This document shows positions 7,423 through 47,022 of a stretch of DNA of 64,000 nucleotides, one piece after another. Below the pieces are notes generated by a model. It was not told where the DNA came from and made no database searches. It saw only the letters and a program-made list of their open reading frames with translations. Positions within the stretch are counted from its first letter, which is position 1, and each line of letters starts with the position of its first letter. This stretch comes from Bdellovibrio svalbardensis (lineage in GTDB: Bacteria > Bdellovibrionota > Bdellovibrionia > Bdellovibrionales > Bdellovibrionaceae). The translations under genes were made by a program, and so were the position numbers. Where the stretch lies: assembly GCF_029531655.1 (NCBI RefSeq), contig NZ_JANRMI010000003.1, positions 186,001 through 250,000 on the forward strand, written 5' to 3'.

Positions 7423-8061
7423 ATGCAAAAGCGACATATAGATAACTGTCCGATCTGTTCCACTCAAGAAGAGGCCGTGACTGAACAAATACTCTCGGTC
7501 ATTCAAAAAAAGAGCTACGCAAAAAACGCCGTGATCTTCGAACCAGAAGAGAACACTCATGGACTTTTTTTGGTTATCAAAGGCAGCGTAAAAATCTCCA
7601 AGATCTCCGCGAATGGAAAAGAAATTGTTCTCGGCTTACTTGGGCCGGGAAAAACATTCGGCGAAAGCAGTTTGCTGGGACAGGATAGACAAGAGGATTC
7701 AGCGACAGCCTCAGAAGCCACGGATTTGCTCTACATTCCGAAAGGAAGTTTTCAGACAATTATTCAACAAAACCCTCAGCTCTATCAATCTGTGGTCGCC
7801 TCACTGGTCAGATGGATGTCCAACCTCAATCAGATCATTGAAAACATCAACACGCCTTCTGCGCGAGACCGTGTTTGGAGCTATCTCTGTCGATTAAAAA
7901 ACGACCAGCCTCATCCGCTCATCCAGCTCGATGGAAAAAAGCATGAAGTTGCTTTGATGCTTGGCTTGCGTCCTGAAACCTTCTCGAGAATTTTATCGGA
8001 CTTGGAAGCTGAAGGAAAAATTAAGATGAACCACCGGCAGATTCAATTTCTTGAGTCCTAA
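7423..8061 (+). CDS. Crp/Fnr-family regulator with FNR-type recognition helix
   Basis: The 212-residue protein has a cyclic-nucleotide-binding-like beta roll (about residues 25-115, with LVIKGSVKISK and GPGKTFGES), a dimer helix and a C-terminal helix-turn-helix, LGLRPETFSRILSDLE. The E..SR pattern in that helix is the one FNR and DNR use to read TTGAT-N4-ATCAA. The N-terminus carries CPIC (Cys9, Cys12), but I do not see the four-cysteine set of a [4Fe-4S] FNR, so direct oxygen sensing is uncertain; it could be a DNR/NnrR-like NO or redox sensor. It lies just upstream of nrdG-nrdD and near nnrS and nirK. Confidence 0.88.
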   Translation: MQKRHIDNCPICSTQEEAVTEQILSVIQKKSYAKNAVIFEPEENTHGLFLVIKGSVKISKISANGKEIVLGLLGPGKTFGESSLLGQDRQEDSATASEATDLLYIPKGSFQTIIQQNPQLYQSVVASLVRWMSNLNQIIENINTPSARDRVWSYLCRLKNDQPHPLIQLDGKKHEVALMLGLRPETFSRILSDLEAEGKIKMNHRQIQFLES

Positions 8062-8083
8062 AGTCACGCCCCCACTAGATGTG

Positions 8084-8097
8084 GTGATGCAAATCAT
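8084..8097. promoter_or_regulatory. FNR/DNR-like box upstream of nrdG
   Basis: GTGAT-GCAA-ATCAT is a two-mismatch match to TTGAT-N4-ATCAA with the inner TGAT/ATCA palindrome intact. It is centred about 72 bases before the nrdG start. Confidence 0.55.
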
Positions 8098-8162
8098 GAT
8101 TCCATACGATTCCTAGTGATTAAATAAAAGCCCTCTCTATTCTTGAAGCATGAGAGGGCACC

Positions 8163-8630
8163 ATGAACATCTACAAGTACGACATCGTTTATCAGGAAGT
8201 TCCCCATCATATTTCTTTGGCGCTTTATGTTTGCGGCTGTCCTTTACAATGCCCCGGTTGTCACTCCCCCGAACTCTGGACTGAAAAAACAGGAACCCCT
8301 CTAACCAGGGAGGGGCTCTTATCTTTGCTCAACAAATATTGTGACCGCATCAGCTGCGTGCTCTTTCTCGGTGGTGAATGGCACGAGCAGGAACTCGTCA
8401 GTCTACTGCAAGTAGCGCGAGAACAAAGTCTTCTCACTGCGCTTTATACGGGATTGGACGTCGTTTCCCCCGAGTTGGAAAAGCATCTGGATTTCTTGAA
8501 GACGGGCCCCTGGCGCCGCGAGCTCGGCGGCTTGGCATCCCCCAACACGAATCAAATCTTTCGAGACCTGCGCAATGGCCAGATTCTCAATCATCTATTT
8601 CAAACTAACAGCAAGGAGACATCTTTATGA
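8163..8630 (+). CDS. nrdG: Anaerobic ribonucleoside-triphosphate reductase activating enzyme
   Basis: This radical-SAM enzyme creates the glycyl radical on NrdD. Cysteines 26, 30 and 33 form the CX3CX2C iron-sulfur motif (CPLQCPGC), and VLFLGGEWHEQEL resembles the SAM-binding GGE segment. At 155 aa it has the typical compact NrdG length. Its stop overlaps the nrdD start (ATGA), so the two are translationally coupled. An FNR-type box lies upstream, consistent with use only without oxygen. Confidence 0.93.
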   Translation: MNIYKYDIVYQEVPHHISLALYVCGCPLQCPGCHSPELWTEKTGTPLTREGLLSLLNKYCDRISCVLFLGGEWHEQELVSLLQVAREQSLLTALYTGLDVVSPELEKHLDFLKTGPWRRELGGLASPNTNQIFRDLRNGQILNHLFQTNSKETSL

Positions 8631-10531
8631 TAAGACTCAGCCCAGAACAAATTCAGAAAAAAATCGACTTCATCAATCACTATAAGGCTGCCGCCAATCC
8701 CGCGGAAGGCTCCAAATTGGATGCCAATGCCAACGTCACACATAAAAACGTGGCGACGCTGGAAGCAGAGATCAACAAAGACATCAACATCCAAATTAAT
8801 CGTGCCTTGGTTGCCAATAAAATCAGTGCCCTTTTTGGTGCGGACTTGGCAAAAGAATATCACCGCCAAATTGAAGAGCATGAAATTTATGTTCATGACG
8901 AAACGTCCCTGAAGCCTTACTGTGCCTCCATCTCCATGTATCCGCTATTACTGGAAGGACTCAAAGGTTTGGGAGGAGAATCCAAAGCACCTCAACATCT
9001 GGAGAGTTTCTGTGGTTGTTTCGTGAATCTGGTTTTTGCGATCTCCTCTCAGTTTGCCGGGGCGGTCGCGACAGTGGAATGGATCATGTACTTCGACCAC
9101 TTCGCGCGCAAAGACTACGGTGATGACTATCTCAAGACACACACCAAAGTAATCAACAATCATTTACAGCATGTGGTCTATGCTTTGAATCAACCTGCGG
9201 CAGCTCGAGGCTATCAGTCGGTATTCTGGAATATTTCTGCTTACGATGAATACTACTTCAACTCTTTGTTCGGCGACTTTGTCTTTCCTGATGGCCAACG
9301 CCCCGTCTGGAAAAGTGTTGAAAGTTTGCAGAATCATTTTATGTCCTGGTTCAATCAAGAGCGAAAAAATGCCATTTTGACTTTCCCCGTGGTGACAGCC
9401 GCCATGTTAGTCGATAAGCAGGGCCCCCGAGATAACGAGTTTGCCCAAATGTGCGCTCGTGAACTCAGTGAGGGCAACAGCTTCTTCATGTATATGAGTG
9501 AATCGGCAGACAGCCTGGCAAGCTGCTGCCGCCTGCGCAATGAAATCTCTGACAACACTTTCAGTTATTCGTTAGGGGCCGGAGGTGTTGCTACCGGATC
9601 GATCAATGTGATTACTATCAACATGAACCGACTTGAGCAAAAAGATATTAGTTTGTCGGAAACCGTTGAGAAAGTTCAAAAATATCAAGTCGCCTATCGC
9701 AGCTTGATGCAGGAGTATCTTGATGCCGGTCTGCTCGGCGCTTATAGCGCAGGGTTCATCTCTTTGGACAAGCAATTTCTGACTATTGGTATCAACGGCA
9801 TGGTTGAGGCTGCGGAATTCGCAGGCTTGGAAATCAAGAACGAAGCTCCATACAAAAATTTTGTCCGTGAAAAACTTAAAGTTATCTTCGACGCCAACAA
9901 GAAGGCTCGTCAGGAATACGGTTTTATGTTCAACACCGAATTTGTTCCCGCCGAAAACTTGGGTGTCAAGAATGCCACTTGGGATCGTAAGGAAGGACTT
10001 TATGTTCCGCGCGATTGTTATAATTCTTACTTCTATGCCGTCGAGAGTGATCAACTCAATTCACTGGATAAAATGGATCTGCATGGGCAGGAGATGATGC
10101 AGTATTTGGATGGAGGCTCGGCCTTGCATTTAAATCTTGATGAGAAGCTGACCCAAGAAGGATTCATGAGGCTTATTCGTGCGGCGGCGATTTCTGGTTG
10201 CAACTATTGGTGTGTGAACATCAAGATCACCATTTGCAATAAGTGTGAACACATCGACAAAAGAACTCTACACCAATGTCAAAAATGCGGCAGCCCCGAT
10301 GTCGATCATGCCACTCGCGTGATTGGTTATCTGAAGAGAATCTCCGCCTTCAGTTCTGCTCGGCAGAAAGAGGCGGCGAAACGCTTCTATCACCCTACGA
10401 CTGTTTCGTCCGTACAATCTTTGGCAAAAACACCCAACCCCAAATCAACAGACCAAGAATCCATGTATAAGCCGCATAAAGCAGATGCGACTGATAGATT
10501 CCAGGAGCAAACCCTGCTGATAAACGCGTGA
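8627..10531 (+). CDS. nrdD: Anaerobic (class III) ribonucleoside-triphosphate reductase
   Basis: Reduces ribonucleotides to deoxyribonucleotides under anoxia using a glycyl radical. Visible signatures are ASCCRLRNE (active-site Cys), the C-terminal zinc site (CNKCEHIDK...CQKCGSPD, two CXXC pairs) and ATRVIGYLKRIS, the glycyl-radical loop at about residue 567. The conserved family sequence ends around RQKEAAKRFYH (about residue 589). The last 45 residues are low-complexity and lie wholly opposite the 3' end of nnrS, so they look like read-through into antisense sequence after loss of an earlier stop. It forms an operon with nrdG. Confidence 0.93.
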   Translation: MIRLSPEQIQKKIDFINHYKAAANPAEGSKLDANANVTHKNVATLEAEINKDINIQINRALVANKISALFGADLAKEYHRQIEEHEIYVHDETSLKPYCASISMYPLLLEGLKGLGGESKAPQHLESFCGCFVNLVFAISSQFAGAVATVEWIMYFDHFARKDYGDDYLKTHTKVINNHLQHVVYALNQPAAARGYQSVFWNISAYDEYYFNSLFGDFVFPDGQRPVWKSVESLQNHFMSWFNQERKNAILTFPVVTAAMLVDKQGPRDNEFAQMCARELSEGNSFFMYMSESADSLASCCRLRNEISDNTFSYSLGAGGVATGSINVITINMNRLEQKDISLSETVEKVQKYQVAYRSLMQEYLDAGLLGAYSAGFISLDKQFLTIGINGMVEAAEFAGLEIKNEAPYKNFVREKLKVIFDANKKARQEYGFMFNTEFVPAENLGVKNATWDRKEGLYVPRDCYNSYFYAVESDQLNSLDKMDLHGQEMMQYLDGGSALHLNLDEKLTQEGFMRLIRAAAISGCNYWCVNIKITICNKCEHIDKRTLHQCQKCGSPDVDHATRVIGYLKRISAFSSARQKEAAKRFYHPTTVSSVQSLAKTPNPKSTDQESMYKPHKADATDRFQEQTLLINA

Positions 10532-11626: not shown

Positions 11627-11674
11627 GTCGGAAAGGGAATTTTCATGAAATTCTTCCAGATAGAGGTTACTCCC

Positions 11675-12427
11675 ATGCACGATATTAATAACTTATTGAG
11701 AAACCTGGATCTTTTTCGCGGCCTATCAGAAAGAGAGATGAAAAAAATATCTCCCTATCTGGAGGTCGTGCATGTTCCCAATAAACAGATGGTCTTCCTC
11801 AAAGGTGAGCCCATTGAAAATATATTCCTGATTTTATACGGCTCCGTCAAAATTCAGGAAACCTTGGATAAGAGAACCACCAAGATCTTTAACTTTCTCA
11901 CCCAGAAAGAATTTCTGGGCGTTGCTATGGCAGGTCTACCTCAACCTCGTTATCCCGCCTGTGCTCAAAGCAATGAAGACAGCACCTTATTAAAAATTCC
12001 ACTGCATTTGTTCTTCAATGTACTTATCAAGATCCCTGAAATCCGCCAGGCTGTCGCGCAACAGATCTCTGAGAGATTTTTAGAATTTCAAAATGACCTT
12101 TGCCGGGCACAGAAACTTGCCCCCTATCGAATTGCTGACTTTCTGCTTCGCCTGCTGGATCGCCAAGGTTCGTCCAGTCATGGGCGCATCGTAATTCCTT
12201 TATCACGTTCTGACATTGCCGATCGTGTTGGCGTTCAAAGTGAGACCGTCATACGCATACTCAGCAATTGGACAAAACGTGGACTCATCAGAACACAGGA
12301 TCATCATATTGAGATCTTAAACCGTCAGAATTTACTGGAGGTGCGACGTGAACGTCCTTCTAAAAAAGCTTCGCGAGGAGCATCAGATGATTCTGCAGAT
12401 GATAGATGCAAACGAGGACATCTTTAA
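11675..12427 (+). CDS. Second Crp/Fnr-family regulator
   Basis: The protein has a cupin-like sensor domain (LDLFRGLSEREMKKISPYLEV, then FLKGEPIENIFLILYGSVKIQ), a long dimer helix and the helix-turn-helix VGVQSETVIRILSNWTKRGLI. The recognition helix has E..IR, close to but not the same as the FNR E..SR. Chosen start: ATG at 11675 (250 aa), with GAGG upstream and the box at the usual distance; ATG at 11645 (AAGGGA upstream) is the alternative. The last 27 codons overlap the hemerythrin-like gene and look like a tail. NO sensing of the DNR/NnrR kind is inferred from context only. Confidence 0.82.
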   Translation: MHDINNLLRNLDLFRGLSEREMKKISPYLEVVHVPNKQMVFLKGEPIENIFLILYGSVKIQETLDKRTTKIFNFLTQKEFLGVAMAGLPQPRYPACAQSNEDSTLLKIPLHLFFNVLIKIPEIRQAVAQQISERFLEFQNDLCRAQKLAPYRIADFLLRLLDRQGSSSHGRIVIPLSRSDIADRVGVQSETVIRILSNWTKRGLIRTQDHHIEILNRQNLLEVRRERPSKKASRGASDDSADDRCKRGHL

Positions 12428-12863
12428 GATCATTCATTTCGTCGAAAACGTACATCATCCGCGGGAAGAACAGCAGCTTTTTCCTTTAGTGGCACAAAGT
12501 CCACTCTTGCGCCAAGGCGGACCTTTATGCACTTACTTCAAAGGGATAGAACTTGATTTAAATCCACTGTCAGCCGCACGCAAACATCTTGCTGACCTTT
12601 ATCAACAAGGCTGTCCACACCCTGAAGACTATCCGGATTTTCAGTGGCTCAATTCACAGAGCCCTCTCAGTATGCCGATGAATGAGCATCAGTTGGGGCA
12701 TGAATTGGCAGCAGCACTCAACTTCTTGAGTTCCAATCAGGAATCTTCCCTTTATAAAATATTCTTTTCTAAGATTTCAGAAGAGTATAAGAAATTACTT
12801 AAGGCCCACATAGACAAAGAGGATCACTGCCTCTTTGTCATATGTGAAAGAATTCTGGATTAA
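12348..12863 (+). CDS. Hemerythrin-like (HHE) diiron protein
   Basis: The 171-residue helical protein carries histidine/acid pairs spaced as in hemerythrin HHE domains: REEHQMI near the N-terminus, VHHPREEQQLFP, NEHQLGHE and AHIDKEDHCLF at the C-terminus. These can bind an oxygen- or NO-reactive diiron centre; related proteins (DnrN/YtfE, Hemerythrin-NnrR neighbours) repair iron-sulfur clusters or bind NO. The start is GTG at 12348 with a perfect GGAGG 6 bases upstream, inside the 3' end of the Crp/Fnr gene, so translation is coupled. It ends 4 bases into the convergent DUF2249 gene. Confidence 0.85.
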   Translation: MNVLLKKLREEHQMILQMIDANEDIFKIIHFVENVHHPREEQQLFPLVAQSPLLRQGGPLCTYFKGIELDLNPLSAARKHLADLYQQGCPHPEDYPDFQWLNSQSPLSMPMNEHQLGHELAAALNFLSSNQESSLYKIFFSKISEEYKKLLKAHIDKEDHCLFVICERILD

Positions 12864-13123
12864 GACTCGCCACAGAATCCGCAGCAGCCCTCTTTTTTCT
12901 TCTTGGTTAAACGCAAGCGCCATTCCGTAGGACCCTTTTGCAAATATTCATCCACGAATTGCTCTGGTCTGGTCTCTCGAAACTGACGAAGTAAGGGCAA
13001 AGGATCATGATTATTTACGATCAAGATACTCTCCCCTCCCTGCAAATTATCAAACTGTTGAAAAATAAAGGCATGGCGGTGCTGCGGCTCCATTTTTTGA
13101 ACTTCAATCACAAACTCAGTCAT
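12860..13123 (-). CDS. DUF2249-family small protein
   Basis: The 87-residue product matches the DUF2249 pattern: EPQHRHAFIFQQFDNLQGGE, then VNNHDPLPLLRQF and GPTEWRLRLTK. This family is often found beside hemerythrins and denitrification genes; its biochemical role is unsettled. Unusually, the protein ends with a lysine run and a CCGFCG cysteine cluster that could bind a metal. A perfect FNR/DNR box (TTGATCTCGATCAA) is centred 56 bases before the start, so it is probably a single-gene unit of the same regulon. Confidence 0.87.
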   Translation of the reverse strand: MTEFVIEVQKMEPQHRHAFIFQQFDNLQGGESILIVNNHDPLPLLRQFRETRPEQFVDEYLQKGPTEWRLRLTKKKKEGCCGFCGES

Positions 13124-13172: not shown

Positions 13173-13186
13173 TTGATCTCGATCAA
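13173..13186. promoter_or_regulatory. Perfect FNR/DNR box upstream of the DUF2249 gene
   Basis: TTGATCTCGATCAA is a perfect TTGAT-N4-ATCAA palindrome. The identical 14-mer occurs at 45788 before the chemoreceptor gene. Confidence 0.78.
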
Positions 13187-14630: not shown

Positions 14631-16049
14631 TTACTTTTTACCGGCCGCGCGCACGGCTTTCACTTCTTCAGGAGTTACAACTTTTTTCGAGTTGCCCCAC
14701 ATACTGTAGACATAAGTCAAAACGTTTGCGGCATCTTCATCTGACAGCAATTGCGCTGGCATCACTGAGTTGAATTCTTTGCCGTTAACTTTGACTGGGC
14801 CTTCCAAACCGTGAATGACGGCTGAGATCGCTTTGTCTTTATTCTTATTCAAGAAATCAGAACCAGCAAGCGGAGGGAAGGCGCCCGGAAGACCTTGGCC
14901 ATTGCTTTGATGGCAGGCAAAACATGAAGTATCAAAGATACGTTTACCGCCAGCTAAGCGTTCTTCCAAGTTTTTCGCTGGAACCTGCTTAGGAGCTTCG
15001 GCTCCCATCTCTTGAATGACACCGCCTTCAGGCTGATAAATGCCGTCTGCAGTTTTACCAGAGTAGATTTCTTTATTTTCTTCGCCCTCAACTTTTATCA
15101 TTCCCAACGCTCCTTTATTGAAGGCACGGAAGATAGAATGGTCCACGAGGATCAAAGTTGAAGCTCTCTGAGTTTTGAATTCCACGATGGCAGAGCCGCC
15201 CGCAGGAATCAAAGTTGTCTGAACGTTTTCGTTCACAAGTTTACCGCCCTCAACATAGACCTTATCGAAAATCTCCCCGATCACATGGAAGGAAGATACA
15301 AGATTGGGTCCACCGTTACCGACAAACAAACGAATTGAGTCGCCCACTTTCGCTTTCAATGCTTTATCGCCAGTGATGGCTCCGACATTACCGTTGAAAA
15401 CGACATAGTCCGCTTTTTCCTCAACTGCTTTTGCCATGCTGAAAGGCTGCAAGCCTGGGGCTCCGTATTTTCCTTTTGTATAGAACTCACTTTGCATCAC
15501 ATAGAATTCACGATCGACTTTAGGAAGACCGTCTTTAGGTTCGACCAAAATCAAACCATACATTCCATTACCGATATGCATACCCACGGGGGCAGTCGCA
15601 CAGTGATAAACATAAAGACCAGCGTTCAATGCTTTAAAATTGAAAGTTGAGCTATGCCCTGGCGCTGTGAATGAGCCTTCCGCTCCCCCGCCCTGTCCAG
15701 TTACTGCGTGCAAGTCGATATTATGCGGCAATTTGCTGGATGGATGGTTGTGCAGATGGAACTCCACCTGATCTCCCTCTCTGATACGAATGAACTTACC
15801 TGGCACTTTTCCGCCAAAGGTCCAAAAAGTATAATCCACGCCGTCAGCCAAGCGCATCTTCACTTCTTTAGTTTCCAGATTCACGATCACTTTAGTTGAA
15901 TGTTTGCGAGTGATTGGTGGCGGAACTTCAGGCGCATCAGTCAGTACTGCGACTTCTTCACCTTTGATCGCATCCGCGGCATTCACGGTCGCCGGCAAGA
16001 GGCCAGCAAGCACAATTAACAATGCATTCTTGTAATTCCAAAATTTCAT
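14631..16049 (-). CDS. nirK: Copper nitrite reductase (NirK) with fused C-terminal cytochrome c
   Basis: Reduces nitrite to nitric oxide in the periplasm. After a signal peptide (cleaved near VNA/ADA) come two cupredoxin domains with every copper ligand: [10 protein letters not shown] (type 1 His, Asp, type 2 His), [17 protein letters not shown] (type 2 His, type 1 Cys, His, Met), SSFHVIGE and VDHSIFRAF (type 2 His and catalytic His). A monoheme cytochrome c (CFACH at about residue 373, distal Met near SVMPAQ) is fused at the C-terminus, as in the three-domain Ralstonia-type enzyme. The ATG at 16049 (472 aa) has AAGGAG before it; the longer frame to 16103 lacks one. First gene of nirK-nirV-sco. 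Confidence 0.95.
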
Positions 16050-16193
16050 AACGTTTCTCCTTAGAAGATATTGGGACGATATCATAATCGGACAAAAAAG
16101 CATGGGCTCCTATGATGGCCGTCAGTATTAACAAGATTTTTGCTCTTTTAAACCCCGGTGGGACACTCCCTCGGGCGTCAAAAGTCCTCAAAC

Positions 16194-16207
16194 TTGATCA
16201 GAATCAA
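16194..16207. promoter_or_regulatory. Perfect FNR/DNR box between nirK and the 45-aa peptide gene
   Basis: TTGAT-CAGA-ATCAA is a perfect palindrome. It lies about 70 bases before the small gene at 16271 and about 151 bases before nirK, so it could serve either or both. No closer box was seen for nirK. Confidence 0.75.
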
Positions 16208-16270
16208 GGAATTCTGATTTCCCCAGTCTTACCATTCAGCCAAATATTCAAAGAAACTCTGGAGACACGT

Positions 16271-16408
16271 ATGGGGTTGCTCAAAAAGATTGTTTATTCT
16301 AACGCTATTGGATTCTTTATGATTGTCGGAGCCTGTGTAGGAATTGTTGGCGGTTCCATGGTGATTTGCGGAGCCAGTGTGATTGGCTTGCTTCTTTCCG
16401 GCGGCTGA
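16271..16408 (+). CDS. 45-residue glycine-zipper membrane peptide
   Basis: A short frame with GGAG 6 bases before its ATG encodes two lysines followed by an almost wholly hydrophobic stretch (residues 7-43). Gly20, Gly24 and Gly28 form a GxxxGxxxG glycine zipper, and there are two cysteines (22 and 33), so a self-packing membrane helix or hairpin is expected. The frame stays open 53 codons upstream, but that part lies across the FNR-type box and looks non-coding. It sits opposite nirK, with a perfect FNR/DNR box 70 bases upstream. Function unknown; co-regulation with denitrification is inferred. Confidence 0.6.
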   Translation: MGLLKKIVYSNAIGFFMIVGACVGIVGGSMVICGASVIGLLLSGG

Positions 16409-37326: not shown

Positions 37327-38859
37327 TCACTTACGCCCACCACCTGACGGGCTGCTTTGCAAACTGATGGTCACAGTGGCCGTCGCAGTGAGACGTCCAT
37401 CCGTGATCGTATAACTAAAACTATCGCTGCCTTTAAACCCCTTGGCCGGACTGTAGGTCAAAGTACCATCCGCATTCAAAATAACCTTTCCTTTAGCTCC
37501 CTGAGTAAAGCTGCTCACACTAATGACCTCAGCATCTGGGTCAAAGTCATTTGCTAAAACCGAGATCACCACGGGTGCTATTTTTTGGATCAATACATTA
37601 TCAGCATTCGCGACCGGTGCTTGATTCGGTTTCGGCACTGGATCGTTACCAGACGCAGACCCGAACTTTACACTGACCGTGGCAAGAAGACCGTCTGCCT
37701 TGTCAGCAGTGATTGTCAGACCTGAAACTGGATCGGTGAAACTTTTTCCAATAGGAAGAGCGGGATCAAACCAATCCGCATAACCATATGTGGCATAAAA
37801 AGGTGAATCCATATGCATATGTAAAAGCTGACTGCTGTTAGGTGAATTGTCTTCCCCTAAGCGAATCACGACTCCATTCGTGACCTCTTGGCGGTAAAGG
37901 CGATAAGATCGTTTACTTAAGAAGCTGTCGTACCCGACTGCTTGACGGTATTCCACATAAAACCACGTCTGATTGCCCGTCAGAGGATTGATACCTCGTG
38001 GAATCTTCAAAGCTTTGGCTCCACTACTCATGGTCTCAAAAACAGACACTGAATAACTACCATTGGCTGTCGCACTGATGATCGCAGGCGAGACATTATA
38101 ATTCAACCAGCCAAGTCTTTCCTTTTGAAAGGCGGAAAAATGACCGAAGTCTGGGTTGCCCATAGTGTCGTAGCTATCGCCGTACTCGATAGAGGAACAA
38201 GAAGTTCCGATGGTGACGCCGCCACAATCCAAAGCATGTGAGTGATAGAGTCCAAAGTTATGACCCATCTCATGAGAAATATTGTCGGCCGTGAACGCCC
38301 CACTGCCATTGATATAAGCTCGGGAAGGAACATCCCCGACCGTGCCCATGCCGCTGACATTGCACGGAGTTTTCGTAAACAAATAGACAATCCTCGTGTA
38401 AGAGGAAAGATTAACTCCCTTGGAAATCGCGATTTGATCAGCCGCCTTGCCTGCGGCAGAAAGATCGCACACGGCATTTGAAAGAGGCAGGGTATACCAA
38501 CCGTAAACATCTCCAACCAATTTAGTTTGCTGATAAGACGCCTCATAGAAAAACCCGCTGACTTGGCCAAAGATCAAACTGCGTGCCTGATCTGCGGTAA
38601 TGGGCTGCGAGGTGGAATCTTCCTGGAAATTTGCCATGATGACGAGAGTGCGCTGATCTCCAAGAGCGGACGCTAAAACCCCGGGAGTCCCACCGTTGGT
38701 ACCGCCATCAGTTCCCCCACCTAAAGCCAGAGTCAGAACTGCATTATCCTTCTGGTTGAGCAACTGCTCCGAGTGTTGCGAGTGACAGACCGTTGCAACA
38801 AAAAATATAGATACTAAAACCCAGTGACTACTGCTTACAAGTTTTCCAATTTTCTTCAC
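37327..38859 (-). CDS. Secreted metzincin-type metalloprotease with cadherin-like C-terminal domain
   Basis: GTG at 38859 has GGAGG upstream and starts a signal peptide (VKKIGK...VCHS); the longer ATG frame to 38910 lacks both. The catalytic domain holds ISHEMGHNFGLYHSH (HEXXHxxGxxH zinc site at about residue 195), with a downstream DSYDTMGNPDF Met-turn, as in peptidase M11 (gametolysin). Residues about 420-510 form a VCBS/cadherin-like module (NADGTLTYSPAKGFKGSDSFSYTITDG). An extracellular role in digestion of prey is plausible but inferred. Confidence 0.87.
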   Translation of the reverse strand: MKKIGKLVSSSHWVLVSIFFVATVCHSQHSEQLLNQKDNAVLTLALGGGTDGGTNGGTPGVLASALGDQRTLVIMANFQEDSTSQPITADQARSLIFGQVSGFFYEASYQQTKLVGDVYGWYTLPLSNAVCDLSAAGKAADQIAISKGVNLSSYTRIVYLFTKTPCNVSGMGTVGDVPSRAYINGSGAFTADNISHEMGHNFGLYHSHALDCGGVTIGTSCSSIEYGDSYDTMGNPDFGHFSAFQKERLGWLNYNVSPAIISATANGSYSVSVFETMSSGAKALKIPRGINPLTGNQTWFYVEYRQAVGYDSFLSKRSYRLYRQEVTNGVVIRLGEDNSPNSSQLLHMHMDSPFYATYGYADWFDPALPIGKSFTDPVSGLTITADKADGLLATVSVKFGSASGNDPVPKPNQAPVANADNVLIQKIAPVVISVLANDFDPDAEVISVSSFTQGAKGKVILNADGTLTYSPAKGFKGSDSFSYTITDGRLTATATVTISLQSSPSGGGRK

Positions 38860-39090
38860 GCGCTTCCTCCGGTTATTCGATATAAGGAAAGGCTGCAAGT
38901 GCAGCGCCACGTAGACATTTGCAGGATGAAAATTCTGTTCAGCAGATCACAACATTGATATGCGGTTTTAGACTCCGAATTCATTTCACTCAATGTTAAT
39001 GAACTAGACGCTGCTCATACCTACGACACCTCCAAAATTCAATCTCCTCTGGGAAGTATCAATGTGGGAGTCTCATTTTAGATGAGGACT

Positions 39091-41028
39091 TTATAGTAGC
39101 GGCAACAGCAAGCTCGTCAAGGCCTCGGGCAGTTTATGCGGATTAGGTAAAATCTGAATATTCGCAGCGCCAAACATTTGTGGCAGATAGAACTTGGCCT
39201 TCTCGTCTATGGCAAGGCATTTGACTTGGACTTTCTGTTGCTGAGCCTCGCGCAAAGCTTGCTTAATATCCTCCATGCCATATCTGCCTTCGTACTGATC
39301 ATAATCGGAGGCCTTCCCATCACTCAGAAGAATGATGATCTTGTGGCGAGCTGAAGATTCCTGCAGTAGCTCCACACCGTGGCGAAGTGCTGGCCCAATC
39401 CGCGTGTAACCTTCTGGCTCCAAGTCATTAAGATGTTGCTTCAAATGATGCCAAGAATGTTGAAAGCTCTTCATTTCATCATAGACGCAATGATGACGGG
39501 TGTTGCTGTGAAAGGCCGCGACACTCACACATCTTTCTTCCTGAATAAGTGCGTCCGCAATCAGACATACGCTGTTTTTAATAACATCCAAAACTCGTTC
39601 ATTGGCAACCCAGGAATCGGTGGAAAGACTGCTATCGATCAAAAGAAGGCACTGCCACTCTTTCAGGCCCTTTTGTTTGCGCATATAAAAGCGATCTTCC
39701 GAAGAATTTCCACTTTTCAAATCGGCATGCCGAACCACCAAAGAATCCAAATCCAACTCGGTGCCGTCTTTTTGCCGTTTCTTCCAAAGAGGCTGATGAC
39801 GAACCTGTTCAAAGAGCTTCTGCATGTCACGTTTTTCTTTGGCGTAGCTATCTTGCAATTGAAATGGCGGAACTTCACTTTTTCTGTTCCAAGCCTCAAT
39901 ACGACACCAGTCCTTTCTATAGGACTTGGTTTTGAAATCCCATTCCGGATACAGAAACACCTGGGAAGAATCTGAATCTGACAAGTTCCGACTGAGCATA
40001 TCGGGTATACCCGCATTGATGCGAATGTCAGCTTTATAGATGGAATTTGTTCGTTCCTGACTTCGCACCACTTCCCGCAGTTTCAGCTCTTCCAAAGCCT
40101 CTGCATGATCAGCCAGATGATCGTCGCCATCCTGAGTCCGCATTCCTCCTTGATATTCCTCTAAGGTTTCAACCTTCTCAAAGGTGTGCATAACGGGATT
40201 GCTCTCATCCCCGGCTTTAGCCAATTGAACGGTCACAACTTCTTCGCGATTTTTCCCTTGAATCTCGGTTCCATTTGCCAACGCCTCGGCACTCAATGGG
40301 TCTTCGCCATTTTCGATTGAATTTTGCAAAGTCCCCGGAGCCATCAAAACGCCCCATAACACGAAGGCCTGCTCCGGAAGAGCCCGGCCCACAGGCAGGG
40401 GCGCCACATGGGTTTTATAAACGGCTTCAGCAAAGCTCCAAAAATCTACCTGACTCTTGTGATCGCAATTAAGAATATTTTGCCATGGGCTGCTGACGTT
40501 GCCACTCAAGATCTGATCTATCCACTCGGCGATCAAGCCATTCTGTGTGTTCCGGTCTTGCTTCAGTAAAATCTGCAATTCTGTTCTTATCTGCTTTCCA
40601 AGGACTTCCAAAACCTGGGCCGCACTTGAAAATTCGTGGTGAATATACTGATAGATCTGATAAAGAGCGAGACAGGTATAGACTTCCCTCTCGATCTTCG
40701 AAAGCCCCGCCACTGGCAAGGAAAATCCCAAATGTTTGGCTGAGCTGTTAAATAAAGTCCTTTGAATATAAATCGACTCGTTCATCGATTTGGAATTAAA
40801 GAGGCACAAAGATTTCGGATAGTAAAAATGCTCCCCCGAAAATCCTCCCATGGTTTCAGCTTCAAGAATTTGAATTGATTTTCCACACAGAGATTTCGCA
40901 ATAAATTGCAGTCGAGACTCGAGTTCACTCAGTTCCGCACGCTGATCATAATAAACCGGCTTTGGCTCTGCGGTGAATTTTTTAAAAAGGCGATGGCCAA
41001 AGGCAAAAAGCGCCTCATCAAAGCTCAT
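39091..41028 (-). CDS. norD: Nitric oxide reductase activation protein NorD
   Basis: Needed with NorQ to assemble active nitric oxide reductase. The 645-residue cytoplasmic protein has a helical N-terminal region, an acidic middle (DGDDHLADHAEALEEL) and a C-terminal VWA domain with LLIDSSLSTDSW (DxSxS MIDAS) and IIILLSDGKASDY. The order norC-norB-norQ-norD on the minus strand is the classic operon; it starts 4 bases after norQ. It has normal length for the family. Confidence 0.93.
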   Translation of the reverse strand: MSFDEALFAFGHRLFKKFTAEPKPVYYDQRAELSELESRLQFIAKSLCGKSIQILEAETMGGFSGEHFYYPKSLCLFNSKSMNESIYIQRTLFNSSAKHLGFSLPVAGLSKIEREVYTCLALYQIYQYIHHEFSSAAQVLEVLGKQIRTELQILLKQDRNTQNGLIAEWIDQILSGNVSSPWQNILNCDHKSQVDFWSFAEAVYKTHVAPLPVGRALPEQAFVLWGVLMAPGTLQNSIENGEDPLSAEALANGTEIQGKNREEVVTVQLAKAGDESNPVMHTFEKVETLEEYQGGMRTQDGDDHLADHAEALEELKLREVVRSQERTNSIYKADIRINAGIPDMLSRNLSDSDSSQVFLYPEWDFKTKSYRKDWCRIEAWNRKSEVPPFQLQDSYAKEKRDMQKLFEQVRHQPLWKKRQKDGTELDLDSLVVRHADLKSGNSSEDRFYMRKQKGLKEWQCLLLIDSSLSTDSWVANERVLDVIKNSVCLIADALIQEERCVSVAAFHSNTRHHCVYDEMKSFQHSWHHLKQHLNDLEPEGYTRIGPALRHGVELLQESSARHKIIILLSDGKASDYDQYEGRYGMEDIKQALREAQQQKVQVKCLAIDEKAKFYLPQMFGAANIQILPNPHKLPEALTSLLLPLL

Positions 41029-41031
41029 AAG

Positions 41032-41820
41032 TTAAAATATCATGGCAGCCACGTCCCGCAGGGCTATCATGACATCTCCATCATCTGTAAGAGGTTGTAT
41101 GATGGCCACATCACATGCCAAGCGCGCCTCCAGGCCGTCCCTCATAAGTTTACCAGCATCAACCAGAAGCCGAGTGGATGCGGTTTCAGTCAATCCCAAC
41201 TCTTTGAGGTTGCGAATTTTATGACCGAACTTCACTAGTTTTTTTGCGATCTCAAGAGAGCACTGCGCTTCCTTGCTGACAATCTCGGTTTCAAGCTCTG
41301 CCTTGGGATAGTCAAAGTGTATGGCGACAAATCTTTGCCGCGTCGAAGGCTTTAATTCCTTCAGTCCTTTTTGATATCCGGGATTGAAACTCACGATCAA
41401 CATAAATTCCGGAGAGGCTTTAATTTCTTCGTTGCGCTTATCCAAAGTGATTGTACGCCGATGATCCGTGAGAGGATGCAAGACCACGATGACGTCTTCC
41501 CGAGCCTCTGAAATTTCATCTAAATAAAGTATCGCGCCCTCACGCAAAGCGCGTGTCACTGGGCCATCCTGCCAAACCGTATCCCCCCCTTGAATGAGAT
41601 ACCGCCCAAGTAAATCCGTTGCCGACGTGTCTTCATTGCAAGCAACAGAAATAAGTGGGCGGCCCAATCTTGCCGCCATGGCCTCAACAAATCTCGACTT
41701 TCCACAACCTGTTGGCCCCTTGAGCATCAAAGGAAGACAATTTCGATAAGCACATTGAAGCACTAACTCTTCGTCGCCAACAGCTTCATAGTAAGGATAT
41801 TTAATTTGTGGCTTTAGCAT
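41032..41820 (-). CDS. norQ: NorQ/CbbQ-type AAA+ ATPase
   Basis: The MoxR-type AAA+ ATPase for NO-reductase maturation. Walker A (GPTGCGKSRFVEA), the NorQ-typical SVACNEDTSATDLLGRYL, Walker B (ILYLDEISEA) and MLIVSFNPGYQKGLKELKPSTRQRF (sensor and arginine-finger region) are all present. The 262-aa length is normal. The start overlaps the norB 3' end by 20 bases, so translation is coupled. It acts with NorD to insert the non-heme iron or otherwise activate NorB. Confidence 0.95.
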   Translation of the reverse strand: MLKPQIKYPYYEAVGDEELVLQCAYRNCLPLMLKGPTGCGKSRFVEAMAARLGRPLISVACNEDTSATDLLGRYLIQGGDTVWQDGPVTRALREGAILYLDEISEAREDVIVVLHPLTDHRRTITLDKRNEEIKASPEFMLIVSFNPGYQKGLKELKPSTRQRFVAIHFDYPKAELETEIVSKEAQCSLEIAKKLVKFGHKIRNLKELGLTETASTRLLVDAGKLMRDGLEARLACDVAIIQPLTDDGDVMIALRDVAAMIF

Positions 41821-43144
41821 GTTCTATTTTTCCTTTGGGAGGTCCATACTTAATAAATATCCAAATAAACGCGAAGATTCCGAGACTGAATAAGGCCGCC
41901 GCAAGTACCAATCCTAAAAAGTGGACCTGAATTTCCTTTTGCACCAAAAGAAAATCCATTCCCATACGCCGCTCTAAATAAACTTGTGCAATCCCCGCCA
42001 CACCAAACGCCAAGGTCATCGCCACCATACCAATATTCGAAGCCCAAAAGGCAAAGACGCTCCAGCCACTGTCAAAGAGCTTTCGGCCCGTCAAATTCGG
42101 AAGTGCGTAGGCAATCATCGCAAAGATCAACATCGCATAAGCACCCCAGAACGCTAAATGTCCATGCATCGCAGTGACCAAGGTTCCATGAGTGTAGATA
42201 TTCACCTGTGGCAGAGTGTGCGCGAATCCAAGAAATCCCGCCCCTACAAAGGACATCACAGCGCAGCCGATGGTCCAAGTCAGAGCCAGTTTATTGGGAT
42301 GTTGTCGTCCGCCTTTTTTAGCCATCGCAATCGCATACATCGCCATGCCAAGGAAAGCGAGGGGCTCTAGAGCACCAAAGATTCCACCAATCATCAGCCA
42401 ATAACGAGGAGTCCCGATGAAATAGTAGTGATGGCCCGTCCCAAGAATTCCCGACAAGAACGTGAAACCCACGATGACATAGAGCCATTTTTCAATGATC
42501 TCGCGATCGACCCCCGTCAATTTAATCAACAAGAAGCTAAGAATCGCGCCCATGATCAACTCCCAAACCCCCTCAACCCACAGATGCACAACCCACCATC
42601 TCCAGTAGGAATCCATGGTTTGATTTGTCGTAGGAATCATGCCCGGAAGATAAAGAAGAGCGGCACTTAACAAACCGAAAAAGAGCACCATGCTCGTGGT
42701 GCTATATCTTTTGCCCTTCCAAATAGTTCCACCGATCAGGAAAATGAACAGCAAGACGTCGACGACCACCAAATAGTCCAAGGGACGTGGAATCTCCAAG
42801 AACTTACGACCTTCCCACCAGTTAAAATGAAACCCGATAATTGCCGTAACTCCCACAGCAACAAAAGCCCCGAGCTGCACCAACGCCAATTTAGGAAAAA
42901 TAAGATCACGGCCGGATTCTTCGGGAATAATGTAGTATGCAGACCCCATGAACCCCGCCAAGAGCCACATCACCAAAAGATTGGTGTGCGTCGCCCGAGC
43001 GGTATGGAAGGGTATGATACTGTGAAGATTGTCATACCCCATGTGGGCGAATCCCATGATGAAGCCATAAACAATCTGCAGCGTTAGCAGCAACATACAC
43101 ACGGCGAAAAAATAATATGCAATTTTTTGTGTTTTAAATTTCAT
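41801..43144 (-). CDS. norB: Nitric oxide reductase large subunit NorB (cNOR)
   Basis: Reduces two NO to N2O in the inner membrane. The 12-helix heme-copper-oxidase fold is visible with its histidine ligands: IPFHTARATHTNLLVMWLL, VVHLWVEGVWELIMG (FeB His and Glu), GTGHHYYFIG (two FeB His) and MHGHLAFWGAYAML (heme b and b3 His). The length (447 aa) is normal for cytochrome c-dependent NorB; there is no N-terminal quinol-type extension. It follows norC by 10 bases. Confidence 0.96.
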   Translation of the reverse strand: MKFKTQKIAYYFFAVCMLLLTLQIVYGFIMGFAHMGYDNLHSIIPFHTARATHTNLLVMWLLAGFMGSAYYIIPEESGRDLIFPKLALVQLGAFVAVGVTAIIGFHFNWWEGRKFLEIPRPLDYLVVVDVLLFIFLIGGTIWKGKRYSTTSMVLFFGLLSAALLYLPGMIPTTNQTMDSYWRWWVVHLWVEGVWELIMGAILSFLLIKLTGVDREIIEKWLYVIVGFTFLSGILGTGHHYYFIGTPRYWLMIGGIFGALEPLAFLGMAMYAIAMAKKGGRQHPNKLALTWTIGCAVMSFVGAGFLGFAHTLPQVNIYTHGTLVTAMHGHLAFWGAYAMLIFAMIAYALPNLTGRKLFDSGWSVFAFWASNIGMVAMTLAFGVAGIAQVYLERRMGMDFLLVQKEIQVHFLGLVLAAALFSLGIFAFIWIFIKYGPPKGKIEHAKATN

Positions 43145-43154
43145 GACGGAGCCC

Positions 43155-43853
43155 TTACTTCAACTGTGAAAGGAAATTTGCTAACTCTTGAACCTGTTCA
43201 TCTGTGAGGGGCAGCTTCGGCATTTTTGAATCTGCCTTGACTGCCAGCGGATCTTTTAGCCAGGACACTAAGAAATCATGATTACGACGATTTCCCACAC
43301 CATCCAGTACGGGGCCGACGGCTCCACCTTTCCCCTGAAGAGCATGGCAAGCCACGCATACTTGATCGAAAACAGCGGGTTTCGTTGGCAGTGGCAGTTC
43401 TGAAAGCTGTGCGGTGTTTGCTGTCGGCGCCGCAGGAACTAGATCCGGTTTTTTAGGGAAGCCATTAAGGTCTACTTCTCCGATCCACTTTAAAAATGCG
43501 ACCAAGGAATCAATCTCGGTTTCTGTGAAATTATACTTTTGCATGTTCCTTTGCCCCGGGAACATGGCTTGAGGATCCTTTAACATGGACTTAATGAAAA
43601 TCGGCCCTCGACGTTCATAGACCTTAGTTAACTCCGGAGCATAATAAGCTCCCTCGCCCATAATAGTGTGACACCCCATACAGTTGTTATGATCCCACAG
43701 ATCCTTTCCGTGAATGACTTCGGGAGTGATATTTTCAGCATGACTTTGCTGCGGCACCTTTTGGACAGTATCTACAGTCAACAAGACGAAACAACCTGAA
43801 CAAACAACCGTACCAATAAGAAAGAACTTCTTCGCGGCTGACTTTGATAACAT
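43155..43853 (-). CDS. norC: NorC subunit with an extra C-terminal cytochrome c domain (diheme)
   Basis: An N-terminal membrane anchor (about residues 8-28) is followed by the NorC heme motif NNCMGCHTIMGEGAYYAPELTKVY (CXXCH at about residue 57), with RNMQKYNFTETEIDSLVAFLKWI as the rest of the domain. A linker (PAAPTANTAQ) leads to a second c-type domain with VCVACHALQGKGGAVGP (CXXCH at about residue 166) and MPKLPLTDEQVQELANFLS. Usual NorC is about 150 aa with one heme; this is 232 aa with two. AAGGAG precedes the ATG, and an FNR-type box lies about 59 bases upstream. Confidence 0.93.
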   Translation of the reverse strand: MLSKSAAKKFFLIGTVVCSGCFVLLTVDTVQKVPQQSHAENITPEVIHGKDLWDHNNCMGCHTIMGEGAYYAPELTKVYERRGPIFIKSMLKDPQAMFPGQRNMQKYNFTETEIDSLVAFLKWIGEVDLNGFPKKPDLVPAAPTANTAQLSELPLPTKPAVFDQVCVACHALQGKGGAVGPVLDGVGNRRNHDFLVSWLKDPLAVKADSKMPKLPLTDEQVQELANFLSQLK

Positions 43854-43905: not shown

Positions 43906-43919
43906 ATGATTTGAATCAA
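43906..43919. promoter_or_regulatory. FNR/DNR-like box upstream of norC
   Basis: ATGAT-TTGA-ATCAA differs from TTGAT-N4-ATCAA at one defined base. It is centred about 59 bases before the norC start, in the short gap after the chemoreceptor gene. Confidence 0.68.
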
Positions 43920-43948: not shown

Positions 43949-45736
43949 TCAGTGGATATTCTTATTTTGACCGTTAACGATGAGATTCAGACCGTTCACC
44001 ACCACCAACAGACTGCGCCCATGACCTGACATCTTGCTACTTAAGGCTGAGACTTCTTCCGCGGCGGCGGCGTTTCCCTGAGTCGCAGAATCAAGTTGAT
44101 TCATGGCTTCCGCAATCTGAGAAAATCCCGTTGCCTGCTCTTGACTGACGCTGTTAATTTCCACGTTTAAGGTGTTTATTTTACGGATCCCTTGTGCCAG
44201 CTCTCGCAACGAGGTCCCACTGACTTCAACGATGTTGGTCCCGCGCTCAATTCCTGCGACACTGGTTGAAATCAGCGAACTGATGTCTTTGGCCGCCGAT
44301 GCACTTTTTTGCGCCAAAGAACGAACCGCATCCGCCACAACGGCAAAGCCTTTGCCCTGCTCACCAGCCCTAGCGGCCTCTACGGCCGCATTCAATGCCA
44401 GCAAATTTGTTTGGAATGCCAGATCATCAATGACAGCAATAATTTCCTGAATTTTCTTAGAATCCCCGGTGATTTCGCTCATGGATTTGACCAAATTGTC
44501 TGTATGAGATTCGCCCTCTTCAGCCTTCAAGGCTCCATCACTTGACAATGAAGCTGCCAGTTCAGCTCTTTTTGCTGTTTCCCGGGCAATACTGGTTAAT
44601 TCTTCGACCGAAGCCACAGTCTCTTCCAAGGAGGCTGCAGTTTCCGTGGTTCCTTCAGAAACTTGCTGGCTGGAGTTCGCTAAAAGATCACTCGCGGTGG
44701 CAACCTCGAGGGCAATTTCATGAAGAGTCTGCATCGCGCCGTCGATGCTTTTCACCAAAGAATGAACAGTTTTTAAAACAAGTCCTACCGTCGCCAAAAG
44801 AATCAAAGCCGCGAGCCCCAGCGAAAGGTAGATCGTTGACGTAATCGCCTTTGCCTCCGTTTGCAAGGCAGCAGAAGATCTTGCGCTTTCCCGATCAATC
44901 AAATCGTTCATCAAATCCAAAGAGGAAGTAATAGCTGTATAAAACTCCTTCGGATCAAAACCATAGTGTCCTGCACCTGACTTTTCATTCACACCATCAA
45001 CGACATGAAGAACCTTTTTCCAGCTCTCAGAGTTCACAAAAGACTCAATTTCGGCCATGCCTTGTGGTGATACATCCATAGCCGGTGAGTTCAGATTGAC
45101 CAGCATACCGACTCTCAATGCATTCAAACGACCGATTTGCTGAGCGGTTAGAGCTTTGTCCTCGGTCAGAATACTAATGACTTGCGCACGCAGCTGCCCG
45201 GCCGACTCTTTAGCTGTGTTGAAAATTGCCAGAGCCAAAATATGATTTTCAAATCCTCGAAAAGTGACAGTACGAGAAAGTCCCACCTGAACTTTCAATA
45301 TTGATGCAATGGATCTGCTATACTGTTCAGACGACTGAGGGGCATCAATGACACTGTCGTTAATGCTCCTTCTTAAATTTTCCAGGTTCGATTTTAGTGG
45401 TTTCCAAGCCTCCAGGCTTTTGCTATCCAGACGCGTTTGAATCAACTCTTTATCAGCTTGATCAAGAAGTATATCTGTCTCTTTGCGAACTTGATTGAGT
45501 TCCTCCAAGGATAAATTCTTCCCTAAGAAAAGACTACTTCGGGCTCTTTCCTTCTGCATATTATGAGTTAAATGAGAAAAGGCTACGAACGCAGAACTAT
45601 GCCGAATAAGCTGGCTGGCTTCATCCACATCGTGAAGTGCTTCCCGGGCCAATTTACCCCCCACCACTCCGCTAAGGAAAAAGGGGATAAACATGAGAAG
45701 AAGTATCTTTCTTTTTAAATTGAGTGTCTTAAGCAT
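43949..45736 (-). CDS. Methyl-accepting chemotaxis protein with NIT-like sensor
   Basis: Two transmembrane helices (about residues 10-28 and 303-325) flank a large periplasmic helical domain. That domain has [31 protein letters not shown] and later [19 protein letters not shown], the pattern of the NIT (nitrate/nitrite-sensing, PF08376) module; this is by eye. The cytoplasmic part has the MCP hairpin tip [21 protein letters not shown] at about residue 447-465. A perfect FNR/DNR box is centred about 58 bases before the ATG, and norC lies just downstream, so it is probably a denitrification-linked chemoreceptor. Confidence 0.88.
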
Positions 45737-45787
45737 GGGCCCTCTTTGCGTTTAGATTATTCTATACTTCGCAAAGGCCCATTTTCT

Positions 45788-45801
45788 TTGATCTCGATCA
45801 A
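45788..45801. promoter_or_regulatory. Perfect FNR/DNR box upstream of the chemoreceptor
   Basis: TTGATCTCGATCAA is a perfect TTGAT-N4-ATCAA palindrome, identical to that before the DUF2249 gene at 13173. It is centred about 58 bases before the chemoreceptor ATG. Confidence 0.8.
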
Positions 45802-45819: not shown

Positions 45820-47022
45820 TTATGATAGCTGAGAAATGAAATCTTTCATACGAGTGATCGCACGCTTCATGGTCTCTTCCGAAACCGCAAAACTCAAGCG
45901 CATGAATCCCTCAGAACCGCACTCGACTCCAGGAACGGTCGCTACAAAGAACTTCTCGAGTAAAATATCACAGAAGTCTTTGGAGGTGCGAATATGGCGA
46001 TCACCAAAGTTTTTTCCCAAGCAGGCTTTGATATCCACCCAATAGTAAAAAGCACCTTCCGGGTTGGCGACTTTGAATTGTGGAATGCTTGCAAACTCTG
46101 CCAAGCCCGAGTCTTTTCTTGCGATCAATTTTTTTACCACTTCCGCAATATCTGGTTCACAGTTTTTAAGAGCAGCCACAGCGGCGTGCTGTGAGATACT
46201 TGAAGGCGATCCCGTCGATTGGCTTTGATAGTCGGCCATTGCGGTGATGAGCTTTTCAGGGCCCGCCGCCCAACCGATTCTCCAACCGGTCATAGAGTAA
46301 GCCTTCGAACCACCATTCACAACAACCGTGCGATCACGCAGATCCGGTGCCACTTGCAAAATATGCGGAGCTACAGTTGTTCCATCGAACACCAAGCGGT
46401 TGTACATATCATCGGAGATCACAACCACCTGAGGATGTCTTCTTAAAACATCTGCAAGTGCCTTCAGCTCTTCCGCAGAATATAACAAGCCCGTCGGATT
46501 GCTGGGCGAACAAAACAAGAAGCCTTTGGTTCTGGCGTTAATGGCTTTTTCTAGTTTTTCAGGAGTGATCTTAAAGTTTTCATCTTCGCCGCATTCAACA
46601 ATATGAGGAACGCCATCCGCCAGTTCTACCATTGTGGGGTAGCTGACCCAATAAGGTGTCGCAATGATCACCTCATCGCCAGGAGAGCAAATCATCTGCA
46701 AGGCTGCGAAAACGATATACTTTGCACCGGAGGCCACGGTGATTTCTTTTGTCGAATAGGCCTGGCCCAATTCATTCTTAATCTTTACACCAATAGCCTG
46801 ACGAAGTTCGACGGTTCCATTGGCCGGAGTGTATTTCGTAATACCTTTTTCAATAGCTTCAATTCCCGCTTTCGAAGGAATATCAAAAGTCGGCCAATCT
46901 GGCTCTCCTACCGTCAAAGAAATCACATCATGTCCCTGGGCCGCAAGTTCCTTGGCTTTTGCCACCAGGAAAAGGGTCGGAGACGTTTTCAGATTTTGCG
47001 CTCTTTTCGATAGTTGAACCAA
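45820..47022 (-). CDS. Aspartate/aromatic aminotransferase, class I
   Basis: A PLP-dependent transaminase. The catalytic Lys is in VNGGSKAYSMTGWRIGW (about residue 237); other marks are SLTVGEPDWPTFDIP, NGTVELRQAI, FLFCSPSNPTG (PLP Asn) and the late MRLSFAVSEETM (Arg binding the substrate carboxylate). At 400 aa it fits the aspC/aspAT I-gamma subgroup. The preferred amino acid cannot be decided from sequence. It starts a minus-strand group that is not coupled to the neighbouring chemoreceptor. Confidence 0.92.
   Translation of the reverse strand: MVQLSKRAQNLKTSPTLFLVAKAKELAAQGHDVISLTVGEPDWPTFDIPSKAGIEAIEKGITKYTPANGTVELRQAIGVKIKNELGQAYSTKEITVASGAKYIVFAALQMICSPGDEVIIATPYWVSYPTMVELADGVPHIVECGEDENFKITPEKLEKAINARTKGFLFCSPSNPTGLLYSAEELKALADVLRRHPQVVVISDDMYNRLVFDGTTVAPHILQVAPDLRDRTVVVNGGSKAYSMTGWRIGWAAGPEKLITAMADYQSQSTGSPSSISQHAAVAALKNCEPDIAEVVKKLIARKDSGLAEFASIPQFKVANPEGAFYYWVDIKACLGKNFGDRHIRTSKDFCDILLEKFFVATVPGVECGSEGFMRLSFAVSEETMKRAITRMKDFISQLS

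Follow-up and report, generated by a model that had tools for sequence, protein, structure and literature searches.

The chemoreceptor gene next to the norCBQD cluster of Bdellovibrio svalbardensis encodes a methyl-accepting chemotaxis protein (MCP) whose outer part, as modelled, has the fold and key arginines of the nitrate/nitrite sensor (NIT) type, and a perfect FNR/DNR-type box precedes it at promoter distance. Both lie in a 64,000-nucleotide stretch of contig NZ_JANRMI010000003.1 (positions 186,001 to 250,000), hereafter the window, for which a first-pass annotation had proposed a receptor coupling denitrification to tactic behaviour in a predator. We confirm that observation, and on sequence grounds its functional reading is plausible: we consider it somewhat probable that the protein is a nitrite/nitrate-type chemoreceptor, driven from its box together with the denitrification genes by a Crp/Fnr-family regulator, and that it steers the predator. 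Domain, fold, motifs, box and spacing, gene order and co-occurrence are observed, and from these we infer ligand, regulator and taxis. The receptor comprises the following features.

43949-45736, minus strand: NIT-domain methyl-accepting chemotaxis protein, 595 aa (ORF translation and Pfam)
44891-45571, minus strand: NIT sensor domain, residues 56-282 (PF08376, 88.8 bits, and NasR fold)
44084-44545, minus strand: MCP signalling domain, residues 398-551 (PF00015, E 5e-44)
45545-45556, minus strand: Q61-K-E-R64 codons with the first pocket arginine, equivalent to QCER50 of NasR (alignments)
45188-45199, minus strand: G180-Q-L-R183 codons with the second pocket arginine, equivalent to GQER176 of NasR (alignments; PMC7496416, PMC8199190)

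The NIT profile (PF08376) matched the MCP over profile positions 2-233 of 239 with an E-value of 9.6e-25 and 88.8 bits, the curated cut-off being 24.9 bits. In a genome-wide profile search (3,898,044 bases) this was the sole NIT domain, and MCP matches numbered 21. The hairpin tip of the signalling domain is intact in the translation, and a Pfam scan of the protein gave no match to HAMP. Transmembrane (TM) segments were placed by hydropathy peaks, which fall near residues 7-30 and 295-329; since these two hydrophobic stretches bracket the sensor, the NIT domain is predicted to be periplasmic, as the first-pass annotation had claimed for a helical domain of NIT pattern.

The structure prediction and profile search which that annotation had called for both returned NIT. 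An AlphaFold model, made from an alignment of the sensor regions of 18 NIT MCPs of Bdellovibrionota, reached a mean pLDDT of 89.9, and its best-ranked Foldseek match was NasR of Klebsiella oxytoca (PDB 4AKK; E 3.7e-6, TM 0.71). VIA-align superposed the model on NasR over 270 residues with Z 31.0 and rmsd 3.0, the runner-up chain scoring Z 13.9; because mostly helical models commonly attain Z of about 14 by chance, the NasR match is well clear of that level. The profile of the 18-sequence alignment likewise found NasR among PDB sequences (4.7e-15). A PilJ-type LBD was considered and set aside, as McpN and PilJ chains cover only part of the model and score far below NasR.

The motifs quoted in the first reading are present in the MCP, the first from residue 61 and the second with GQLR at 180-183. 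Pairing of R64 with NasR R50 follows our own numbering, with a 27-residue offset. Eight columns are invariant among the 18 aligned sensors (Q61, E63, R64, R122, R183, A184, L207, and G256), and these include both pocket arginines, R64 and R183; the second arginine is absent in the weak NIT-like MCPs of genomes G019 and G009 (L121, L035). The nitrate pocket predicted for NasR contains E175 and R176 (PMC7496416); with respect to the G-x-x-R motif NasR has both arginines, one glycine being changed to glutamine (PMC8199190).

That the receptor is co-regulated and has a real NIT fold but binds a different ligand, still serving redox- or prey-linked behaviour during denitrification, is a possibility that we take seriously while thinking it unlikely. 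The NIT domain of the Pseudomonas aeruginosa MCP PA4520, compared here by description, bound neither nitrate nor nitrite, and the mutant retained nitrate taxis (PMC6381276); thus, the NIT fold does not settle the ligand of the window MCP. The window sensor is also strongly divergent, sharing 21-28% identity with other Bdellovibrionota NIT domains and sitting on a long branch of the tree, so its ligand could differ. Against this, both NasR pocket motifs are retained, and PMC13215616 reports nitrate taxis for the NIT-domain MCP PacN of Pectobacterium, citing a NIT-receptor study, while Dd15070 of Dickeya, also a NIT-domain MCP, is listed as a nitrate/nitrite receptor in PMC10832524.

Between the two ions, gene content favours nitrite. 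A genome search found no NarG/NapA-type nitrate reductase; its one molybdopterin-family match, to an Act/Qrc-like fused protein, scored at the cut-off. The respiratory chain here would then start at nitrite, which places nitrite ahead of nitrate as the likelier respiratory cue. Nitric oxide was rejected as a direct ligand since the MCP offers no evidence of a haem or iron site. Of the original interpretation, then, the NIT-type sensor, FNR/DNR-type promoter, nor linkage, and predator genus stood, NO sensing found no support, and nitrite came to be favoured over nitrate.

The genes and sites that tie the receptor to denitrification fall in two parts of the window.

39091-41028, minus strand: norD, von Willebrand A domain
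41032-41820, minus strand: norQ, AAA and CbbQ_C
41801-43144, minus strand: norB, COX1 family
43155-43853, minus strand: norC, 232 aa, two cytochrome c domains
43906-43919, unstranded: one-mismatch box ahead of norC, with TAATAT 22 nt further on
45759-45764, minus strand: candidate -10 element TAGAAT, 23 nt after the MCP box
45788-45801, unstranded: perfect box of FNR/DNR type, TTGATctcgATCAA, 51 nt upstream of the ATG of the MCP (pattern search)
12860-13123, minus strand: DUF2249 gene
13173-13186, unstranded: identical perfect box before the DUF2249 gene, with -10-like TAAAAT at 22 nt
14631-16103, minus strand: nirK, Cu nitrite reductase with C-terminal cytochrome c (TIGR02376, 358.9 bits)
16194-16207, unstranded: perfect box, 90 nt upstream of the start of the nirK ORF as called

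Both a nitrite reductase and an NO reductase are encoded in the genome; for nosZ, a nos_propeller search that lacked a positive control gave no match. The MCP does lie directly upstream of norC, as first described, with a gap of 95 bp followed by norC, norB, norQ, and norD in that order, yet nor has its own one-mismatch box. The usual NorC has one cytochrome c domain; NorC here (43155-43853) has two.

The 14-mer at 45788-45801, TTGATCTCGATCAA, is identical to the box at 13173-13186 before DUF2249, bearing out the earlier statement that the two genes share it. At the MCP the perfect TTGAT-N4-ATCAA is followed by a candidate -10 whose spacing is one base off the commonest (23 versus 22 nt); a box to -10 spacing of about 22 nt is the class II geometry of FNR-type activators. 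In the orientation of this box the MCP is the sole downstream gene, the aminotransferase gene on the same strand ending at 45820.

A genome-wide pattern search, followed by inspection of the flanking stretch of every site, found 28 perfect boxes and three of the reversed pattern. Twenty-five of the 28 lie inside ORFs, and the idea of a large regulon suggested by 28 against three was dropped on that account. The remaining three are all in the window, at DUF2249, nirK, and the MCP, if the 98-aa ORF overlapping the nirK-side box is taken as spurious; that ORF spans 16112-16408, and the -10-like TAnnAT of the box points toward it and away from nirK. The three non-ORF boxes, each at a denitrification-linked gene, fall within 33 kb in a genome of 3.9 Mb, a clustering that is not chance-like. 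All three carry TAnnAT on one flank at 22-23 nt (at nirK, this is the flank facing away from the gene); none of the other 25 carries it at 21-23 nt. Among intergenic box orientations aimed at a gene within 200 nt in the fetched loci of other genomes, TAnnAT stood exactly 22 nt after the box in four of ten, and at no other spacing within 10-35. Perfect or one-mismatch boxes also precede norC in G020, G008, G017, and G003. Elsewhere, in G020 and G008, perfect boxes separate NnrS from a gene of the U32 family (TrhP/UbiU-like; L084:1286, L085:4328), a hint that one or other of these genes belongs to the regulon there.

The box could nevertheless be a regulatory coincidence, exerting no control over the MCP, or the arrangement could reflect mainly mcp-nor read-through with the MCP as a passenger. 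Perfect boxes are not generally enriched between genes (3/28), nor is preceded by a box of its own, and no terminator-like site separates MCP and norC on that strand. We judge this account improbable: the box stands at promoter distance, its -10 has near-class-II spacing, and in that orientation no gene but the MCP lies downstream. In addition, the independent NIT MCP of G009, which is not beside nor, shows the same layout, a perfect box of its own standing 53 nt ahead of its start with TACGAT spaced at 22 nt.

Two Crp/Fnr-family regulators are encoded in the window.

7423-8061, plus strand: Crp/Fnr-family regulator, recognition helix ETFSR; of the local genes, the best candidate to read the box
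11645-12427, plus strand: second Crp/Fnr-family regulator, with ETVIR helix

HTH_Crp_2 genes number six in the genome, and in three of these the recognition helix is of the E-x-x-SR type, the window gene having ETFSR and two genes elsewhere ESFSR and ESLSR. Compared with PDB sequences, the 7423-8061 regulator has DNR among its matches (3dkw, 4e-14), with other Crp-family chains scoring better, and it has C9, C12, and one later cysteine rather than the four cluster-ligating cysteines of FNR. By its sequence it is a candidate regulator of the MCP box. Its gene stands directly before nrdG-nrdD (class III ribonucleotide reductase; 7423-10531), an order kept in G008 and G006.

The nearest named relatives of NorB belong to Bdellovibrio sp., and comparison across that genus supports a link between receptor and operon. 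NIT MCPs with both arginines occur in seven of ten nor-positive genomes (G000, which is this genome, G003, G008, G009, G014, G017, and G020) and in none of 14 nor-negative ones (Fisher p 3.5e-4, leaving out the degenerate NIT-like MCP of G019, in which the second arginine is lost; p 0.0023 if it is counted). After correction for kinship using the aminotransferase tree, the traits move together in four to five of six independent pairs and never apart (p 0.06-0.125), six pairs being too few for the co-occurrence to reach significance.

Proximity adds to this. In five of the seven genomes with enough flank around nor to be assessed (G000, G008, G020, G006, and G023), nor has an MCP within 5 kb, for which p is about 6e-5 if genomes are independent and 5e-4 if G006 and G023 are counted once, given an expectation of about one MCP per 190 kb. 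The sensors beside nor are NIT in three genomes, helical and non-NIT in two, and PAS-bearing in another Bdellovibrionales record; an MCP is absent from most of the other 80 NorB-neighbour loci. In G006 and G023 the MCP without NIT follows norD, and in both the norB gene (L091:9157-10488 and L092) is interrupted by one in-frame TGA, with norQ, norD, and the adjacent MCP intact. The PAS domain of the record outside the genus is C-terminal, in an MCP just after norD (L134:9976-11184). In G008 a gene for a PLP-dependent decarboxylase (L085:12407-14188) sits immediately upstream of the norC box; in G003 (L087:6342-8117) one small ORF lies in between.

Five relatives have the aminotransferase gene, then zero to two unrelated genes and then w35995, with neither nor nor MCP at the site; in the window the MCP-norCBQD genes and a 527-aa ORF (37327-38910) stand between the aminotransferase gene and w35995. 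The MCP-norCBQD block appears to have arrived or moved as a unit, separately from the nirK cluster, which lies some 23 kb off. Placement of the window MCP within a clade of Bdellovibrio NIT MCPs was neither supported nor rejected (AU test p 0.24).

Under the favoured reading, a drop in oxygen or the presence of NO would lead the predator to make a nitrite/NO respiration chain together with the receptor. A Crp/Fnr-family regulator would read TTGAT-N4-ATCAA, turning on the MCP along with DUF2249 and the nirK region, and norCBQD would be turned on through its own box and possibly also by read-through from the MCP. The periplasmic NasR-like domain would bind nitrite and/or nitrate between R64 and R183, the signal would pass via TM2 to the standard MCP hairpin and then to CheA, and the receptor would guide swimming along nitrite/nitrate gradients. 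The output might instead be something other than flagellar taxis, the MCP feeding a pathway for gliding, attack, or c-di-GMP; chemoreceptors can communicate with other circuits (PMC13215616) and the organism is a predator, but the signalling domain is standard and no non-flagellar che genes were seen beside the MCP, which leaves this very unlikely.

Each element of the nitrite/nitrate receptor scheme has precedent. NasR shares the NIT fold over 270 residues and the Q-x-E-R and G-x-x-R pocket motifs, but is a soluble NIT-ANTAR antiterminator of nitrate assimilation, whereas the window protein is a membrane MCP. The receptor encoded by P. aeruginosa aer is a PAS-FAD energy sensor, not a NIT protein, and we know of no tie between it and nor. 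It is, like the receptor proposed here, a taxis receptor under an FNR-type regulator, ANR, according to a citation within PMC4498747 (Hong, 2004). McpN of P. aeruginosa is a nitrate chemoreceptor whose LBD aligns to part of the sensor model (Z 11.9), but it has a PilJ domain, is specific for nitrate only, and is repressed by nitrate (PMC6381276). For PacN and Dd15070, the literature searched mentions no tie to a nor operon or FNR-type box. Likewise, the literature searched held no study of nitrate or nitrite taxis in Bdellovibrio, and within it the combination of these elements in a predator, with repeated MCP-nor pairing, is as far as we could find new.

A broader and speculative proposal, which we hold to be doubtful, is that the nor locus in Bdellovibrio may be a recurring docking site for MCPs of differing sensors, such that partial denitrification would bring along a taxis module of its own when inherited, and a predator lacking nitrate reductase would track nitrite/nitrate released around denitrifying prey. 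A NIT receptor as divergent as the window protein, and retaining both arginines of the pocket, could help decide which NIT domains bind nitrogen oxyanions. The receptor also connects, in a way that can be tested, how a bacterial predator respires with where it swims.
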